From Glacieibacterium arshaanense (lineage in GTDB: Bacteria; Pseudomonadota; Alphaproteobacteria; Sphingomonadales; Sphingomonadaceae), in NCBI RefSeq assembly GCF_004681125.1, contig NZ_SIHO01000001.1:1065149-1129148 (forward strand): DNA of 64,000 nt. Reading direction: 5' to 3'. A program made the position numbers and the translations under genes. Positions 10,178 to 17,608 of the stretch are shown piece after piece; the stretch's first letter is position 1, and every line of letters starts with the position of its first letter. The notes below the pieces were generated by a model. The model saw only the letters and a program-made list of their open reading frames with translations, was not told the DNA's origin and did not search any database.

Positions 10178-11257
10178 CTAACGGCTGGGCTCGACGATGA
10201 TCTTGATATGCGCATCGGGCTTGGCGAGCGTTTCGAACGCGCCTGCCGTGCCCGCGAGATCGACAGTGCCGGTGATGAAATGATCAGCATTTACCGTACC
10301 TTCGGCAAGGTAGTGCAGACACTGTGCATATTCGTCGGGGGTGTAGGCGAAGGCAAAACGCAGATCGAGATGCTTGACGATCGCCAGCGCGGGCTCGAAG
10401 CGGTCGGTTTCCATGCAGACGCCGACGATGATGATCTGCGCCGAATTGGGCGCACCTTCGATAAGCTTTTGCACCATTCCCGGCACGCCGACACATTCGA
10501 AGATCACTGCATTCTTGGGCACACCGCCCATCATGGCGATCATGCCGCGTTCACCGGCGTTGGCGGGAACACCGAAGTCACTCCAGCGCGAATACGGCGA
10601 CGTGGCCGCCGGATCGACGACGATGTCGGCGCCAATGGCTTCGGCGCTGGCGCGGCGCTTGGGCGAGAAGTCGGCCGCGAGAACCGGTCCGAAGCCACGC
10701 GCCTTCAATGCCGCGATCACCGCCAGCCCCACCGGCCCGCAACCGATGACAACCGCAACGCCGGCGGTTTCGAGGTTCGCCAGATTGACCGCGTGCAGCC
10801 CGACGGCGAGCGGCTCGGTCAGCGCGGCGGCGGTGCTCGACAGTCCATTGGGTACTTCAAGAAGCATCGCTTCGCTGAGCAGCATATTTTCGGCGAAACC
10901 ACCGGGTACTCGGTTCGAATAGCCCACCGATTCTGCCCCGGTGGGCCCCAGTAGCACCGGCACCGAGACGACACGCGTCCCGGCCTTGAGCGTCCTGGCG
11001 TTGCCGATGCCGTGTTCGAGGATCTCGGCGCAGAATTCATGCCCGAAAACAATGTCTTTCGACGGGTCCATGACATCGCCGCCGCCACCGCTGCGTCGCG
11101 CCATATCGGCCAGCGCTTCGGCATGGTGCAACGCATGCAGGTCAGACCCGCAAATGCCGCAGGCCAAGGTCTTGACCAGCACCTGCCCCGTCCCCGGGGC
11201 CGGCACCGCCATGTCATCGACAACCAGCGTTTTGCCACGCCGTACAACTGCCCGCAT
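10178..11257 (-). CDS. Zinc-dependent alcohol dehydrogenase family protein
   Basis: The 359-residue enzyme starts at MRAVVRRGK with GGGAGAAGCAGG upstream. The catalytic zinc site is visible as CGICGSDLHALHH and FGHEFCAEI, and the Rossmann motif as VVIGCGPVGLAVIAAL. A loop rich in glycine (SGGGGDVMDPSKD) lies between the zinc ligands. The four-cysteine structural zinc lobe of classical alcohol dehydrogenases is not seen, so this belongs to a shorter medium-chain dehydrogenase class. It oxidises an alcohol or polyol with NAD(P)+; the substrate is unknown. Confidence 0.87.
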   Translation of the reverse strand: MRAVVRRGKTLVVDDMAVPAPGTGQVLVKTLACGICGSDLHALHHAEALADMARRSGGGGDVMDPSKDIVFGHEFCAEILEHGIGNARTLKAGTRVVSVPVLLGPTGAESVGYSNRVPGGFAENMLLSEAMLLEVPNGLSSTAAALTEPLAVGLHAVNLANLETAGVAVVIGCGPVGLAVIAALKARGFGPVLAADFSPKRRASAEAIGADIVVDPAATSPYSRWSDFGVPANAGERGMIAMMGGVPKNAVIFECVGVPGMVQKLIEGAPNSAQIIIVGVCMETDRFEPALAIVKHLDLRFAFAYTPDEYAQCLHYLAEGTVNADHFITGTVDLAGTAGAFETLAKPDAHIKIIVEPSR

Positions 11258-11360
11258 CCTGCTTCTCCCAAGGCCGTTTTTTGCCTTCTTGGCGGGCAAT
11301 GCCGCGCTTGTCGAGCAGTCACGGCTTGCCACGAGGCGCCAATTCATTCTACCCACCACC

Positions 11361-11525
11361 GCAGATGGTGCCACCGGAGACGGTGGCTAAGAGGGAAGCC
11401 GGTGCGAATCCGGCGCTGTGCCCGCAACTGTAAGCGGCGAGCCGAGCACGAAAATGCCACTGGGGAGTATTCCCTGGGAAGGCGGTGCGAAGGTGTCGAC
11501 CCGTGAAGTCAGGAAACCTGCCATC
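11361..11525 (+). promoter_or_regulatory. Cobalamin riboswitch aptamer upstream of btuB
   Basis: The conserved elements occur in the right order: GGTGCCACCGG near 11367, GAGGGAAGCCGGTGCGAATC from 11391, CCGCAACTGTAAGCGGCGAG near 11421, the CACTGG/CCTGGGAAGG region and the B12 box AGTCAGGAAACCTGCC at 11507-11522. It precedes a TonB-dependent receptor and a cobalamin ABC importer, the classical target. It binds adenosyl- or hydroxocobalamin and lowers expression when the cofactor is abundant. The downstream switch is described separately. The remaining bases 11258-11360 hold no gene that I can support and should contain the promoter. Confidence 0.95.
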
Positions 11526-11586
11526 GCGTCGTCTACACCCCGGCCGGGTCCAGCCAATGGTGTGCGGCGAGCAGGCCAAAGCCGGC

Positions 11587-11651
11587 CTTCTCCGTTGCGA
11601 CGACAATGTCGCAACCGCGTGTTCGCTTCAGGCGATGACGCAACGGAGAAG
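11587..11651 (+). promoter_or_regulatory. Riboswitch expression platform: anti-SD and anti-anti-SD elements for btuB
   Basis: CTTCTCCGTTGCG at 11587-11599 is perfectly complementary over 13 nt to CGCAACGGAGAAG at 11639-11651, which is the btuB Shine-Dalgarno region. The 3' part of that anti-SD, GTTGCGAC at 11594-11601, is also perfectly complementary to GTCGCAAC at 11608-11615 across a six-base loop. The two pairings exclude each other: the short hairpin frees the ribosome site, the long stem hides it. No T-rich run follows either stem, so control is probably on translation. The pairing is seen directly; which state cobalamin favours is inferred from known repressive riboswitches. Confidence 0.8.
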
Positions 11652-11654
11652 AAT

Positions 11655-13523
11655 ATGCCCTTGTTTTTATTGGCGCTAGCTGCGGCAACTGCAACCCCAT
11701 CCATTGTTGTGACTGCCGCGCGAACACCGGTGGCCATCGACCTGTCTGGCGCCTCGATTTCGGTTATCGACGGCACAACTCTGACTGCTTTCGACCTGCC
11801 GCTCGCCGCCGACTATTTGCGTCTGGTGCCGTCGGTCGCGGTGGCTTCGACGGGGCCATTGGGCGCGCAGACACAGGTCCGTATCCGTGGTGCCGAAGCC
11901 AACCAGACGCTGACGTTCATCGACGGAATCAAGGCCAATGACCCGGCATCAGGCGGCGAATTCCGCTGGGAAACATTGCTCGCCGGCGGACTCGACAAAG
12001 TCGAGGTGCTGCGCGGCCCGCAGTCGGCGCTGTGGGGGTCGGAAGCCATCGGGGGTGTCGTCAACGTCATCACCCGCACGCCGAACGCCGGCACAGCCTT
12101 GTTCGGCAAGGCCGAGGCCGGGTCGTTCGGCACCTCGACCCTCGCCGGCGGCGGCAACTTGGGCACCGACCAGGGCGGCGTTACTGCGCAAGCTGCGTAT
12201 CTCAGCAGCACCGGCATCGACAACTCAGCCGTGCAGGGCGGCGACAACGACGGCTTCCACAACTTCACCGCGACTGGCAAGGGCGTCTATCACCCCTCCC
12301 CCAACAGCGAAGTCGGCTTGATCGCGCGCTATGTCTCGGCAACCACGAACTTCGACGACTTCGACTACAGCATCGGGCAATCGGCCGATGCGCCGCTGTC
12401 GAGCAACGCCGAAGCCTTTGCGTTGCGCGGCTATGCGCGGCTCGACCTGTATGACGGCCGCTGGTCGCAGCAGGTCGAAGCGGTGCTCAACGACACCCGA
12501 AACACGAACTACGACGACCGTGCGTTCCTCAATCAGAGCGACGGCTCGATCGGCAAGCTGGCCTATCAAACGACGGGCAGCCTGCAGAGCGGCGACTTCA
12601 GCCATGTGATGACCGGTGCCGTCGAGTATGAGCGCCAGACATTCACCAGTACCGATGTCGATCCACTGGCGCTGTCGAACCAGGACCGATCGCGCGACCA
12701 GACCAGCCTGATCGCCGACTACCGGCTGACCTATGCGCAGATCTTTTCGGCCAGCGGCAGTGTGCGCCACGATATCAACAGCCAATACGCCAACACCACG
12801 ACGTTCCGCGCCAGCGCCGCGTTGGCGCTGGCGCAGGGGTTTCGCGCGCATGCCAGCTTTGGCGAAGGTGTGTCGGACCCGAGCTTCTTCGACCTGTATG
12901 GCTTTTTCCCGGCGTTCTTCGTCGGCAACCCCGACCTCATCCCCGAGACATCGCAAGGCTGGGACGCCGGTATCGGCTGGAAGTCGCAGGCGTTCGCCGT
13001 CGATGTGACGTGGTTCAGGACCAACCTGACCAACGAAATCGTCTCCACCTATGACTTTGCCACGGGCCTCGCCGGCGTCGCCAACGCCAGCGGCACCAGC
13101 GAGCGGCGGGGACTTGAACTGACTGCCACGCTGAACCCGACCGACTGGCTCGAAATCGCAGGCACGTACGCCTATCTCGACGCGACCGAGCAGCAGTTGG
13201 CGAAAGGTCTGGCCTCGCGCGAACTGCGGCGTCCGAAAAATAGCGGCTCGTTGTCGGCGCAAGTCGCCAAGGGCGCGTGGACGGCTTCGGTCGCAGCGGC
13301 TTTTGTCGGTGAACGCTACGACACCGACTTCGCGACCTTCACGCGCATCACCCTGCCCGCCTATACGCTGGTGACCTTGGCGGGGTCCTACCGCATCAAC
13401 GACGCTATCGCGCTGACCGCCCGCATCGAAAATGCCGGCGATGCGCGGTATCATGATGTCGTGGGCTACCGCACGCGCGGCTTCGGGGCGTTTGCCGGCG
13501 TGCGGCTCAACTGGGGCAAATGA
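11655..13523 (+). CDS. btuB: TonB-dependent vitamin B12 receptor
   Basis: The 622-residue outer-membrane protein starts at the ATG preceded by GGAGAAG. A short signal sequence (1-14) leads to a TonB box, SIVVTAARTP, near residues 16-25, then the plug domain with VRIRGAEANQTLTFIDGI and VEVLRGPQSALWGSEAIGG, and a C-terminal 22-strand barrel ending in FAGVRLNWGK, which looks like a C-terminal assembly signal. It takes up cobalamin using energy from TonB-ExbB-ExbD, which are not in the window. The riboswitch upstream and the overlapping btuF-btuC-btuD genes make the substrate assignment strong. Confidence 0.95.
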   Translation: MPLFLLALAAATATPSIVVTAARTPVAIDLSGASISVIDGTTLTAFDLPLAADYLRLVPSVAVASTGPLGAQTQVRIRGAEANQTLTFIDGIKANDPASGGEFRWETLLAGGLDKVEVLRGPQSALWGSEAIGGVVNVITRTPNAGTALFGKAEAGSFGTSTLAGGGNLGTDQGGVTAQAAYLSSTGIDNSAVQGGDNDGFHNFTATGKGVYHPSPNSEVGLIARYVSATTNFDDFDYSIGQSADAPLSSNAEAFALRGYARLDLYDGRWSQQVEAVLNDTRNTNYDDRAFLNQSDGSIGKLAYQTTGSLQSGDFSHVMTGAVEYERQTFTSTDVDPLALSNQDRSRDQTSLIADYRLTYAQIFSASGSVRHDINSQYANTTTFRASAALALAQGFRAHASFGEGVSDPSFFDLYGFFPAFFVGNPDLIPETSQGWDAGIGWKSQAFAVDVTWFRTNLTNEIVSTYDFATGLAGVANASGTSERRGLELTATLNPTDWLEIAGTYAYLDATEQQLAKGLASRELRRPKNSGSLSAQVAKGAWTASVAAAFVGERYDTDFATFTRITLPAYTLVTLAGSYRINDAIALTARIENAGDARYHDVVGYRTRGFGAFAGVRLNWGK

Positions 13524-14302
13524 TGCGCGCATTGGCGGCAGCGCTGTTGGTTTGGAGCGGTGCTGCCGCTGCTGCACCGACGCGTGTTGTCTCGCTCAAC
13601 CTGTGTACCGATGAACTTGTGCTGCTGCTCGCAGCTCCGGGGCAATTGGCGTCGATCAGCTTCCTTGGCGCAGACAGCAACGAGACCGCGCTGGCGCCCC
13701 GCGCGCGCGGGCTGCCAACCAATAACGGGCGGCTCGATTCGGTCGTCGCGCTGGCGCCCGATCTGGTGTTCACCGGCGGCGGTAGCGACCGCTATGCGCG
13801 CGAACTCGCGATCCGACTCAAGCTGCACGTTGTCGATGTGCCGCCGCCGCAAAACATCGCCGATATCCGGCGCAACATCGCAAGCGTAGCGAACGCATTA
13901 GGACGCGATGCCGCCGGCACTGCACTGATTGCTCAATTCGATACCGCATTGGGACCCACACCTGCAGCCACCCGGTCCGCGCTGCTGCTCGGCGGCGGCG
14001 GTACAACCGCGGGAGCGGACGGTGTCGGTGCACAATTGTTGCGCCACGCAGGGCTGATGCAGCAGGATGTGCCCGCCGGACAAGTCAGCCTCGAGCAACT
14101 TCTCGCCGAGCCGCCGCAAGTCATCGTGCAGACAAAGTATCGCAGCAGTCAGGCGTCGCTCGGCCAAAGCTGGCTTCAGCATCCGGCGCTCAGATCGCTG
14201 CCCCCGACGACACGCACCATCACCGTCGATGGCCGACCCTGGACGTGCATGGGCCCACTGGTGGCGCCCGAAATCGCGCGGCTACGGGCTCGGTTGCAAT
14301 GA
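13520..14302 (+). CDS. btuF: Cobalamin ABC transporter periplasmic binding protein
   Basis: The ATG overlaps the btuB stop by 4 bases, implying translational coupling. The 260-residue protein has a signal peptide (1-18, ending AAAA) and the two-lobe helical-backbone fold typical of metal-chelate binding proteins: RVVSLNLCTDELVLLL, DLVFTGG, and the conserved R-P-W near the C-terminus. It collects B12 from BtuB in the periplasm and hands it to BtuCD. The Trp-containing end, VDGRPWTCMGP, fits this family. Confidence 0.9.
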   Translation: MMRALAAALLVWSGAAAAAPTRVVSLNLCTDELVLLLAAPGQLASISFLGADSNETALAPRARGLPTNNGRLDSVVALAPDLVFTGGGSDRYARELAIRLKLHVVDVPPPQNIADIRRNIASVANALGRDAAGTALIAQFDTALGPTPAATRSALLLGGGGTTAGADGVGAQLLRHAGLMQQDVPAGQVSLEQLLAEPPQVIVQTKYRSSQASLGQSWLQHPALRSLPPTTRTITVDGRPWTCMGPLVAPEIARLRARLQ

Positions 14303-15264
14303 CCCGCCTCAACCTCTCGCTCGCCGCGCTTGCGCTGCTGCTGGCGACCGCTTCGCTGTGCTCAGACCCGGCGGGCATGCTGGCGTTGTGGCAGCGTTCA
14401 CCTGAAGCGGCGCGCGCAATCCTGATTGAGCTGCGATTGCCGCGCGCGTTGCTGGCCCTGGCGATTGGCGGATCGCTCGGGCTGACGGGCGCGGCGATGC
14501 AGGGTCTGCTGCGCAACCCACTCGCCTCGCCCGACGTGCTGGGGCCGAGCACCGGCGCAGCGCTTGGCGCGGTGATTGTCGCCTACACTTTTGGCATCGC
14601 CGGAACGCTGGCGATGGCGCTTGGCGGCATTGGCGGCTCGCTCGCGGCGCTTGGGCTACTGCTGTTGCTGTCGCGCGGCGGCGCCTCGACGGCGACATTG
14701 CTGCTCGCGGGTGTGGCGATTTCGGCGCTGGGCGGCGCCCTCACCAACCTCGCGCTCAGCCTCGCGCCGTCGCCCTATGCGCTGTACGACGTGCTGTTCT
14801 GGTTGCTCGGCAGCCTCGCCGACCGCAGTTTGTTGCATGTTGCGGTCGCGCTGCCGCCGCTCCTCATTGGCTGCGCTTTGGTGCTGTCGGGACGACGCGG
14901 GCTAGATGCGCTGGCGCTGGGCGAAGACGTTGCGGCCAGCCTCGGCGTCGATGTCGCGCGGCTGCGGCTGCGTATCGTCGTCGGCACCGCGCTCGCTGTC
15001 GGTGCCGGTGTCGCTGTCGCCGGGTCGATCGGCTTTATCGGGCTGGTGGTGCCGCATCTGGTGCGGCCTCGCGTCGGTGGCCGCCCTGGCGCGGCGCTGA
15101 TGCCGAGCGCGCTGGCGGGCGCGGCGCTGCTGTGCGCTGCCGACCTCGTCGTGCGGTTGCCGGTGGCGGGGCATGACCTTAAACTGGGGGTTGTCACCGC
15201 GCTCATCGGTGCGCCCTTCTTCCTCTGGCTGATCGTCCGCCAGCGCGAAGTCATCGAGCCATGA
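14299..15264 (+). CDS. btuC: Cobalamin ABC transporter permease
   Basis: This 321-residue protein of the FecCD/BtuC family is almost wholly hydrophobic, with about nine or ten membrane segments. Family hallmarks include LRLPRALLALAIGGSLGLTGAAMQGLLRNPLASPDVLG near residues 50-88 and SIGFIGLVVPHLVR near 245-258. It forms the transmembrane channel for cobalamin with BtuD. Its ATG overlaps the btuF stop by 4 bases. Confidence 0.92.
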   Translation: MTRLNLSLAALALLLATASLCSDPAGMLALWQRSPEAARAILIELRLPRALLALAIGGSLGLTGAAMQGLLRNPLASPDVLGPSTGAALGAVIVAYTFGIAGTLAMALGGIGGSLAALGLLLLLSRGGASTATLLLAGVAISALGGALTNLALSLAPSPYALYDVLFWLLGSLADRSLLHVAVALPPLLIGCALVLSGRRGLDALALGEDVAASLGVDVARLRLRIVVGTALAVGAGVAVAGSIGFIGLVVPHLVRPRVGGRPGAALMPSALAGAALLCAADLVVRLPVAGHDLKLGVVTALIGAPFFLWLIVRQREVIEP

Positions 15265-15968
15265 TGCTGGACGTCAACGGCCTCGCGCGCCCGCCCATAT
15301 TGGCGCCGCTGTCGTTCAGCATCGCAGCGGGCGAACTTGTTGGTCTTGTGGGGCCCAACGGCGCCGGCAAGACCACTCTGCTGCGCGCCCTCGCCGGCCT
15401 GACGACAGGCCCCGGCACCGTGCGCATTGACGGCACTACTCTCACCGAAATGCCCGCGCGCGTCCGGGCGCGCCGGCTGGCATGGCTGCCTGCCGATCGC
15501 GGCACGGTCTGGCCGATGCGTGGCCGCGATATCGTGGCGCTTGGGATGATGCCGCTCGGCGTGCGCGACGAGGCCGCAATCGACGCCGCACTCGCAGCTG
15601 TCGATGCCAACGGCTTTGCCGACCGCGATGTCCAGACGCTATCGACCGGCGAGCGCGCGCGCGTGCTGCTGGCTCGCGCGCTGGTGGCACGGCCGGAGTT
15701 GTTATTGCTCGACGAACCCATTGCCAACCTCGATCCCGAACACCGCCTCGGCGTGCTCGATGCGCTGCGCGGCGAAGCGGCGCGCGGCGCTGCGGTGGTG
15801 GTGGCGCTGCACGATCTCGATCTGGCGGCGGCGCGCTGCGACCGGTTGCTACTGCTCGATTGTGGGCGGTTGATCGCCGACGGCCCGCCTGACGCAGTCC
15901 TGACCGCCGCGACATTGGCGCAGGTGTTCAAGGTGCGCCGCGATGAGACGGGCTGGCAGCGCGCTTGA
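15261..15968 (+). CDS. btuD: Cobalamin ABC transporter ATPase
   Basis: The 235-residue ATPase has Walker A GPNGAGKTT near residues 31-39, the signature LSTGERARV (with T where most have G), Walker B LLLLDEP and the switch histidine in VVALHDLD. It powers BtuC. The ATG overlaps the btuC stop by 4 bases, so all four btu genes are chained by 4-base overlaps and share one riboswitch-controlled message. No cobalamin biosynthesis or adenosyltransferase gene follows. Confidence 0.92.
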   Translation: MMLDVNGLARPPILAPLSFSIAAGELVGLVGPNGAGKTTLLRALAGLTTGPGTVRIDGTTLTEMPARVRARRLAWLPADRGTVWPMRGRDIVALGMMPLGVRDEAAIDAALAAVDANGFADRDVQTLSTGERARVLLARALVARPELLLLDEPIANLDPEHRLGVLDALRGEAARGAAVVVALHDLDLAAARCDRLLLLDCGRLIADGPPDAVLTAATLAQVFKVRRDETGWQRA

Positions 15969-16021: not shown

Positions 16022-17608
16022 ATGGCAAGCACCCTCGGCACCGCGCTCAGCGCCACCGCAACCGTCAAATCCAACGCCGAAGCGATGGAGCGCCAAGTCG
16101 CTGACCTGGCCGCCTTGGTTGGCAAAATCGCGCTCGGCGGACCGCAAAGCTCACGCGAACGCCACGTCGCACGCGGCAAGCTGTTGCCGCGCCGACGCGT
16201 CGAAGCGCTGCTCGATCCGGGCTGCGCCTTCCTCGAAATCGCGCAGCTTGCGGCGCATCAGGTCTATGAGGACGACGTACCGGCAGCAGGCATGATCGCC
16301 GGTGTCGGGCAGGTCAGCGGGCGGCTGTGCGTGATTGTCGCGAACGACCCGACCGTGAAGGGCGGCAGCTACTACCCGCTCACCGTCAAGAAGCACCTGC
16401 GCGCGCAGGAAATCGCGATGCAGAACAATCTGCCGTGCGTCTATCTGGTCGACAGCGGCGGTGCCAATCTGCCGCGCCAGGACGAAGTTTTCCCCGACCG
16501 CGACCATTTCGGCCGCATCTTTTACAATCAGGCCAATATGTCGGCCGCCGGCATCAGCCAGATTGCTGTCGTCATGGGGAGCTGCACTGCGGGCGGCGCC
16601 TATGTCCCCGCGATGTCCGACGAGAGCATCATCGTCCGCGACCAGGGCACGATTTTTCTGGGCGGGCCGCCGCTGGTCAAGGCCGCGACCGGCGAGGAGG
16701 TCAGCGCCGAGGATCTGGGCGGCGGTGACGTCCATGCACGGCTGTCGGGGGTCGTCGATCACCTCGCCGAAAACGACAGTCACGCGCTCGAAATCGCGCG
16801 GAATATTGTCGCCACCCTGCCCGCGCCCGAACCGGCGTTGAAGGGCCGCGCGGCCAGCGCACCGCTGTTTCCGGCGAGCGACTTGTACGGCCTGATCCCC
16901 ACCGACATGCGCCAGCCGTATGACGTGCGCGAAATCATCGCGCGGCTGGTCGATGGCTCGCAATTCGACGAGTTCAAGAAGCTCTACGGCGAAACGCTGG
17001 TCACCGGCTTTGCGCATATCGAAGGGCTGCCCGTCGGCATCATCGCCAACAACGGCATCCTGTTTTCGGAAAGTGCACAAAAGGGCGCGCACTTCATCGA
17101 GCTGTGCTGCCAGCGCAAGATTCCGCTGCTGTTCCTGCAAAATATCAGCGGCTTCATGGTCGGCCGAAAATATGAAAATGAAGGCATCGCCAAGCACGGC
17201 GCCAAGATGGTTACCGCCGTCGCCTGCGCGGCAGTGCCGAAGATTACCGTGGTCATCGGCGGCAGCTTCGGCGCCGGCAACTACGGTATGTGCGGCCGCG
17301 CCTATTCACCGCGCTTCCTGTGGATGTGGCCCAATGCGCGCATCAGTGTCATGGGCGGCGAACAGGCCTCCAGCGTGCTCGCCACCGTCAAGTCGGGCGG
17401 GTTCAAGAATGCCAAGGAGGAGGAAGCCTTCAAGGCGCCTATCCGCGACCAGTATGAACGTGAAGGCCACCCCTATCACGCCAGCGCGCGGCTGTGGGAC
17501 GACGGGGTCATCGACCCCGCCGACACGCGCCGCGTCATTGCGCTGAGCCTTGTCGCCAGCCTCAACGCGCCGATCCCGGAGACGCGCTTCGGCACGTTCC
17601 GGATGTGA
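16022..17608 (+). CDS. liuB: Methylcrotonyl-CoA carboxylase, carboxyltransferase (beta) subunit
   Basis: The 528-residue protein matches the MCC beta subunit from end to end: [27 protein letters not shown] near the middle, [36 protein letters not shown] and [19 protein letters not shown]. It transfers carboxyl from carboxybiotin to 3-methylcrotonyl-CoA in leucine breakdown. The partner biotin subunit liuD lies three genes on. Only 53 bases separate it from btuD; TATAGC near 16010 may be a -10 element, in which case the 5' leader is very short. Confidence 0.95.

Follow-up and report, generated by a model that had tools for sequence, protein, structure and literature searches.

The btuB leader examined here places a cobalamin aptamer upstream of a four-gene uptake operon, and it raises the question of how ligand binding could be relayed to the btuB ribosome site. 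The original prediction answered this with two mutually exclusive pairings: a 13-nt complement that closes the Shine-Dalgarno sequence (SD) and an 8-bp hairpin that releases it. We re-examined both pairings in the window (the whole 64-kb stretch of DNA, to which all coordinates refer) and compared the leader with others from its own family and from its class.

The aptamer and its operon

The features of the aptamer region and the operon are as follows.
11349-11538, + strand: cobalamin riboswitch aptamer RF00174 (cmscan, full model, 125.4 bits, E 4.6e-31)
11416-11423, + strand: L5 kissing loop CUGUGCCC, read from the sequence
11535-11563, + strand: P13 kissing hairpin (minimum-free-energy fold, MFE, of 11521-11604; within the R1 match described below)
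11655-13523, + strand: btuB, TonB-dependent receptor (Pfam plug and barrel)
13520-14302, + strand: btuF-like periplasmic binding protein (PF01497; ATGA overlap with btuB)
14299-15264, + strand: btuC-like FecCD permease (PF01032; ATGA overlap)
15261-15968, + strand: btuD-like ABC ATPase (PF00005; ATGA overlap)

The predicted cobalamin riboswitch upstream of btuB is present: the aptamer match includes the core and the B12 box, its score compares with an RF00174 gathering score of 31.5, and no other site in the genome matched at E up to 0.001. The overlapping four-gene btu operon is likewise as described, with ATGA overlaps at 13520, 14299 and 15261. The NCBIfam B12 models all scored below their cut-offs, so the gene names lean also on the riboswitch and the gene order. 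The top model was TIGR01779 (TonB-B12) for BtuB (234 bits, cut-off 599.7), BtuF for the binding protein (28.7 bits, far below 234) and NF003001 (BtuC) for the permease (206.6 bits, cut-off 334), while the BtuD model ranked only sixth for the ATPase (137.6 bits, cut-off 281). The nearest named loci were contigs of uncultured Polymorphobacter (Alphaproteobacteria), with BtuB identities of 95% and 91%. Taken alone, the locus is unremarkable: a B12 uptake operon headed by a B12 riboswitch.

Beyond the operon and on its strand, 16022-17608 encodes an mmdA-related carboxyltransferase (325 bits against a cut-off of 998.8), followed by an ORF that we take to be enoyl-CoA hydratase-like. A sigma-70-like site (9/12) at 11374-11346 on the minus strand, within the aptamer region, faces a divergent zinc-type alcohol dehydrogenase gene (ORF 10178-11374), so that the two leaders may overlap.

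P13 has an outer stem (11535-11539/11559-11563), an inner stem (11542-11544/11553-11555) and the loop CGGGUCCA at 11545-11552. By inspection, L5 GCCC (11420-11423) can pair with L13 GGGU (11546-11549); in the L5-L13 scan the best helix of the window was another, CUGUGC/GUGCGG. Across 86 non-redundant leaders of the own family, L5 and L13 from the same leader paired better than shuffled partners, a level reached by 23 of 10,000 shuffles. The L5 types among 112 own-family leaders were CTGCCCCC (62), CTGCCCCT (18), CTGTGCCC (14), CTGTCCCC (8) and CTGTTCCC (6), and in the printed examples each type came with a matching L13 (e.g., GTCCCC/GGGGAC and TTCCC/GGGAA). Five leaders (L005, L008, L009, L019 and L025) have the kissing loop CCGGGUCCAGCC in common with the window; the called start codon of L005 is more distant than that of the window (index 166 vs 132), and the other four sequences resemble L005.

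The closed fold of the btuB ribosome site

Four elements make up the region directly upstream of btuB.
11587-11593, + strand: anti-SD segment CUUCUCC, pairing with 11645-11651 (P 0.95-1.00 in the folded leader)
11594-11615, + strand: the predicted 8-bp hairpin, part of the closed (OFF) fold (P 0.99 alongside the SD stem)
11617-11641, + strand: third hairpin of the closed junction, 11617-11620/11638-11641 and 11623-11627/11631-11635 (MFE structure)
11639-11651, + strand: 3' arm of the 13-nt complement, of which 11645-11651 holds the SD GGAG

Both pairings exist exactly as described. Read as its reverse complement, CTTCTCCGTTGCG (11587-11599) is identical to CGCAACGGAGAAG (11639-11651), and the same holds for GTTGCGAC (11594-11601) and GTCGCAAC (11608-11615). 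No other 13-nt inverted repeat in the 64-kb window has arms starting within 80 nt of each other, and a length of 13 was reached by none of 1000 dinucleotide shuffles of 11539-11660. The 8-bp hairpin is not rare, with 30 such hairpins with loops of 3-10 nt in the 64 kb. In the three genus members the 8-bp stem is invariant and the 13-nt duplex shows one G-C to G-U change.

The claim of mutual exclusion held in part. The arms do overlap at 11594-11599, but this clash costs the duplex no more than its six inner pairs out of 13 (11639-11644). The partner of the SD part (11645-11651) is 11587-11593, a segment that the hairpin leaves untouched. When 11521-11690 was folded without constraint, the ensemble contained both the 8-bp hairpin (P 0.99) and, together with it, the SD stem 11587-11593/11645-11651 (P 1.00). 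The full 13-bp duplex, whose formation the folding check was to confirm, had a probability of about 0.01 in the leader ensemble, and forcing it cost 3.2 kcal/mol. The hairpin also failed as an anti-anti-SD element, because with it forced the SD was still 98% paired (11521-11690) or 95% paired (11539-11690). Since the SD half CUUCUCC/GGAGAAG folds together with the hairpin, we assign the hairpin to the closed state, and since the SD stays paired when the hairpin is forced, the two predicted states do not correspond to ON and OFF. A switch between the full 13-bp SD duplex (OFF) and the 8-bp hairpin (ON) is consistent with two perfect pairings that overlap by 6 nt and with a 13-nt repeat that is not due to chance, but an MFE structure that accommodates the hairpin along with the SD half of the 13-bp duplex, the persistence of SD pairing under the forced hairpin and the scarcity of the 13-bp form make it very improbable, and we rejected this two-state model.

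What remains of the prediction is a translational cobalamin switch able to sequester the btuB SD. The SD was unpaired with a probability of 0.01-0.04 in the predicted folds of the window, and in 49 family leaders the mean was 0.165, compared with 0.43 when the upstream sequence was shuffled. Transcription attenuation was rejected, because no terminator-like site was found in 11100-11800. The anti-sequestor is likely another helix, with its 5' strand upstream of both predicted pairings.

A second partner for the hairpin strand

The candidate helix, H1, closes a three-way junction with P13 and a further hairpin, H3.
11528-11533, + strand: H1 5' strand GUCGUC, directly after P1, the proposed anti-sequestor (covariation in relatives, conserved position; within the R1 match)
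11599-11604, + strand: H1 3' strand GACGAC, the switch strand, of which 11599-11601 also lies in an arm of the 8-bp hairpin
11564-11598, + strand: H3 hairpin, 11564-11577/11584-11598 (MFE of 11521-11604; third arm in alignment A1, described below)

When the transcript 11521-11604 was folded alone, the MFE structure was H1, P13 and H3, a three-way junction closed by H1. The 3' arm of H3 (11584-11598) contains the anti-SD segment, five of whose seven bases are paired in H3. By sequence, the switch strand has two partners. In growing-chain folds, which represent equilibrium and not kinetics, H1 had a probability of 0.99-1.0 at transcript ends 11605-11611, with the lower part of H3 also present to 11611. 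From 11614 on, the 8-bp hairpin displaced H1; the remaining anti-SD pairs of H3 persisted partly to 11647, and the SD stem won at 11650. H1 is invariant within the genus (three genomes).

In the window, H1 excludes the SD stem, and the H1 state is less stable than the closed fold by about 7-11 kcal/mol, so an ON state would have to be kinetic or aided by factors outside the model. The strong preference of the window for its closed fold over the H1 fold would also be expected if there were no switching platform at all, with SD sequestration only and B12 acting via P13 docking or mRNA decay; we regard this as decidedly unlikely, given a switch strand with two partners and the covariation in relatives described below. 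With H1 forced, the GGAG core of the window was exposed at only 0.08 in the fold used for the family comparison of SD exposure, and at only 0.08-0.50 when the ends were chosen in twelve ways, the main cause being weak pairing with 11628-11629 instead. If the H1 model is right, the ON state is a cotranscriptional one, in which the ribosome must open the weak 11628-11629 pairing.

The own-family set comprised 96 parsed loci and 18 recovered of 22, i.e., 114 leaders, of which one containing N was removed to leave 113; it includes L039, a named Hyphomonadaceae contig. Leaders in all sets were the best-scoring aptamer matches listed, which biases the samples toward canonical aptamers. Many leaders of relatives have their elements in one order: first P1 and a GUCGUY-like hexamer, then P13 and a hairpin, then the anti-SD with a complementary hexamer after it, and last the SD and the start codon. 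By a fixed pattern, 36 of the 113 leaders were without one hexamer, and the 77 with both reduced to 59 non-redundant leaders, among which H1 paired at all six positions in 49. The weighted H1 score, in a better-registered test run after weak or null ones and with the motif already in view, was 13.37 against 12.49 (sd 0.26) for shuffled partners, and 9 of 20,000 shuffles reached it. Register 0 scored 13.4 and shifts of 1 to 3 at most 6.0; the shift of -2 had a z of 2.4 but a negative score. Of the earlier tests, a first PWM had merged two registers of the motif, and a search for the best helix anywhere between the J strand and 45-150 gave a null result (2907 of 10,000 shuffles; 90 non-redundant family-set leaders). 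Counted over independent pairs on the aptamer tree, the changes were six for, none against and two unchanged at position 2, three for, none against and five unchanged at position 6, and one for, two against and two unchanged at position 5.

Class-level comparisons used Alphaproteobacteria, a label taken from the named Polymorphobacter loci, with the own family left out; 103 of 112 class loci were used, and L137 was removed as own family. The downstream motif, found without using the J strand, was present in 40 of the 103 leaders and absent from most of them (63/103). Non-redundant leaders with the motif numbered 36, and 27 of these paired at 6/6 as H1 (z 5.9, 0 of 20,000 shuffles; other registers z at most 1.2). 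A first-match regex gave a weak z of 2.2, with several leaders misregistered, and the best-helix search was also weak (z 2.4-3.0, compared with 1.3 for a control segment pair). Position 4 was A-U in 15 and G-C in 14 of the 36 leaders. Independent contrasts, counted as double change, other and partner unchanged, were 1, 0, 1 at position 1; 1, 0, 0 at position 2; 0, 0, 2 at position 3; 4, 0, 5 at position 4; 3, 1, 5 at position 5; and 0, 1, 6 at position 6. H1 covaries in the own family and in the approximately one third of sampled class leaders with H1. The covariation is uneven, with position 5 in the family and position 6 in the class as its weak points.

Alignment A1 contains only the 27 of 36 leaders with 6/6 H1 pairs; its rows were chosen by H1 pairing, so its H1 percentages are selected, while the P13 and H3 columns are unselected. 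RNAalifold on these 27 rows returned the same H1-P13-H3 junction unaided, with double changes in 17 of 21 pairs and a covariation score of 0.442, compared with 0.243 (sd 0.017) in shuffles. In relatives, H1, P13, H3 and the L5-L13 pair are conserved and covary.

The covariance model R1 was built from the A1 rows, i.e., from other families with the own family left out. In the window it matched 11527-11605 (28.1 bits, E 8e-5), and the next best match had 12.7 bits. In the whole-genome search the window match had an E of 0.004 and ranked second. The top match in this genome was L240 (G000:C1:1194138-1194196, 30.3 bits); no Rfam aptamer was found beside it, and it is probably a chance match. R1 matched 31 of 69 own-family loci at E up to 0.1, the loci having been chosen so as to favour those showing H1. 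Among 200 genomes of the phylum, only 8 contained R1 matches at E up to 0.01, 10 in all; 8 of the 10 lay directly 3' of a cobalamin aptamer, and about two chance matches were expected at this threshold.

Whether H1 opens the ribosome site bears on an alternative in which H1-P13-H3 would be no anti-sequestor but a fixed scaffold offering L13 to L5 once ligand is bound, with the SD closed in some other way. P13 is indeed an arm of the junction, the kissing pair covaries, and H1 affects SD exposure weakly in the class and little in the GGAG core of the window. Of 20 class leaders (7 of the 27 being without an SD call), 9 gained and 3 lost SD exposure when H1 was forced. In the family, forced H1 gave a gain of more than 0.1 in 37 of 49 leaders, not including the window, and a loss in one; the effect was 0.53, compared with 0.35 for control helices. 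If H1 opened the SD as part of a ligand-bound scaffold, B12 would be an activator, whereas in Caulobacter B12 is reported to shut off the btuB and metE leaders (PMC6538847), which by analogy would speak against a scaffold here. The H1 3' strand moreover complements the downstream arm beyond shuffles, which a scaffold would not need. With the J strand blocked, its mean probability of downstream pairing was 0.72, compared with 0.36 when the downstream sequence was shuffled, in the family (44 of 49 leaders higher) and 0.57, compared with 0.41, in the class (22 of 27 higher, p 0.01). We consider the fixed scaffold unlikely.

Proposed mechanism and comparison with known platforms

On balance, the leader is probably a translational OFF cobalamin riboswitch with H1 as an anti-sequestor shared by many alphaproteobacterial leaders. 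While the RNA is still growing or free of ligand, GUCGUC, which follows P1, would pair with GACGAC as H1, closing the three-way junction with P13 and H3. H3 would take up the anti-SD, leaving the btuB ribosome site free of sequestration by that segment, so that H1 would represent the ligand-free ON state. With cobalamin bound, L5 would dock on L13, P13 would be held at the aptamer and H1 would be disfavoured. The freed GACGAC strand could then enter the 8-bp hairpin, and CUUCUCC could pair with GGAGAAG of the SD. Kinetic trapping would be part of this scheme. Translation of btuB would fall, and that of btuFCD may follow by coupling through the ATGA overlaps. Repression of the btu operon by B12 is presumed here from btuB leaders elsewhere, such as that reported for Caulobacter (PMC6538847).

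This redrawn mechanism corrects the predicted switch, and R1 is a covariance model able to find the platform. The interest lies in a junction common to many class leaders, not in the locus alone. More tentatively, we suggest the possibility that a large subset of alphaproteobacterial cobalamin riboswitches has a common, undescribed, covarying anti-sequestor, the three-way junction H1-P13-H3, with the strand between P1 and P13 as the switch strand; no prior account of this junction was found in the open-licence library searched. If this is true, many seemingly ad hoc platforms would be one conserved platform working by strand exchange during transcription, of which E. coli btuB would be a simpler form. 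A conserved junction of this kind, with its compensating changes, would bring many of the class leaders under a single scheme open to testing.

According to PMC10653944, corrinoid riboswitches are regarded as having expression platforms of diverse mechanism. Sphingomonad riboswitches have already been reported ahead of genes for TonB receptors and for btu transport, namely the cobalamin riboswitches of Sphingomonas haloaromaticamans (PMC6970198). They are reported there as located by scanning, and the word stem 'sequest' is absent from the text.

The proposed exchange is the same in principle as the antisequestor/sequestor platform outlined in PMC2258182, in which the metabolite disrupts the antisequestor pairing and the sequestor forms. 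The corrinoid riboswitch of P. megaterium metE is alike in that a kissing loop stabilises P13 and decides between exclusive helices. It differs in being transcriptional, with the 3' side of P13 partly serving as the anti-terminator strand (PMC10653944), whereas the window uses the strand between P1 and P13.

E. coli btuB, also translational OFF with P13/P14, resembles the window in aptamer class, L5-L13 kissing and an SD-sequestering hairpin, and it has been described with an ON state containing an anti-SD/anti-anti-SD helix and an OFF state (PMC11162775). In our folding, GUCGCA after P1 found its partner in UGCGGC after P13 (P 0.95); the GGCAUCC sequestor formed when that strand was blocked. 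The SD was only 0.04 free in the H1-containing fold, because it paired further down in the truncated fold used. Unlike the window, E. coli btuB lacks the H3 arm, P13 is the only element inside H1, and R1 did not find its junction there (2.5 bits), the H1 part being the only one present. H1 belongs to the equilibrium fold of E. coli btuB and not to that of the window. As modelled, E. coli btuB would show the same strand exchange without H3.
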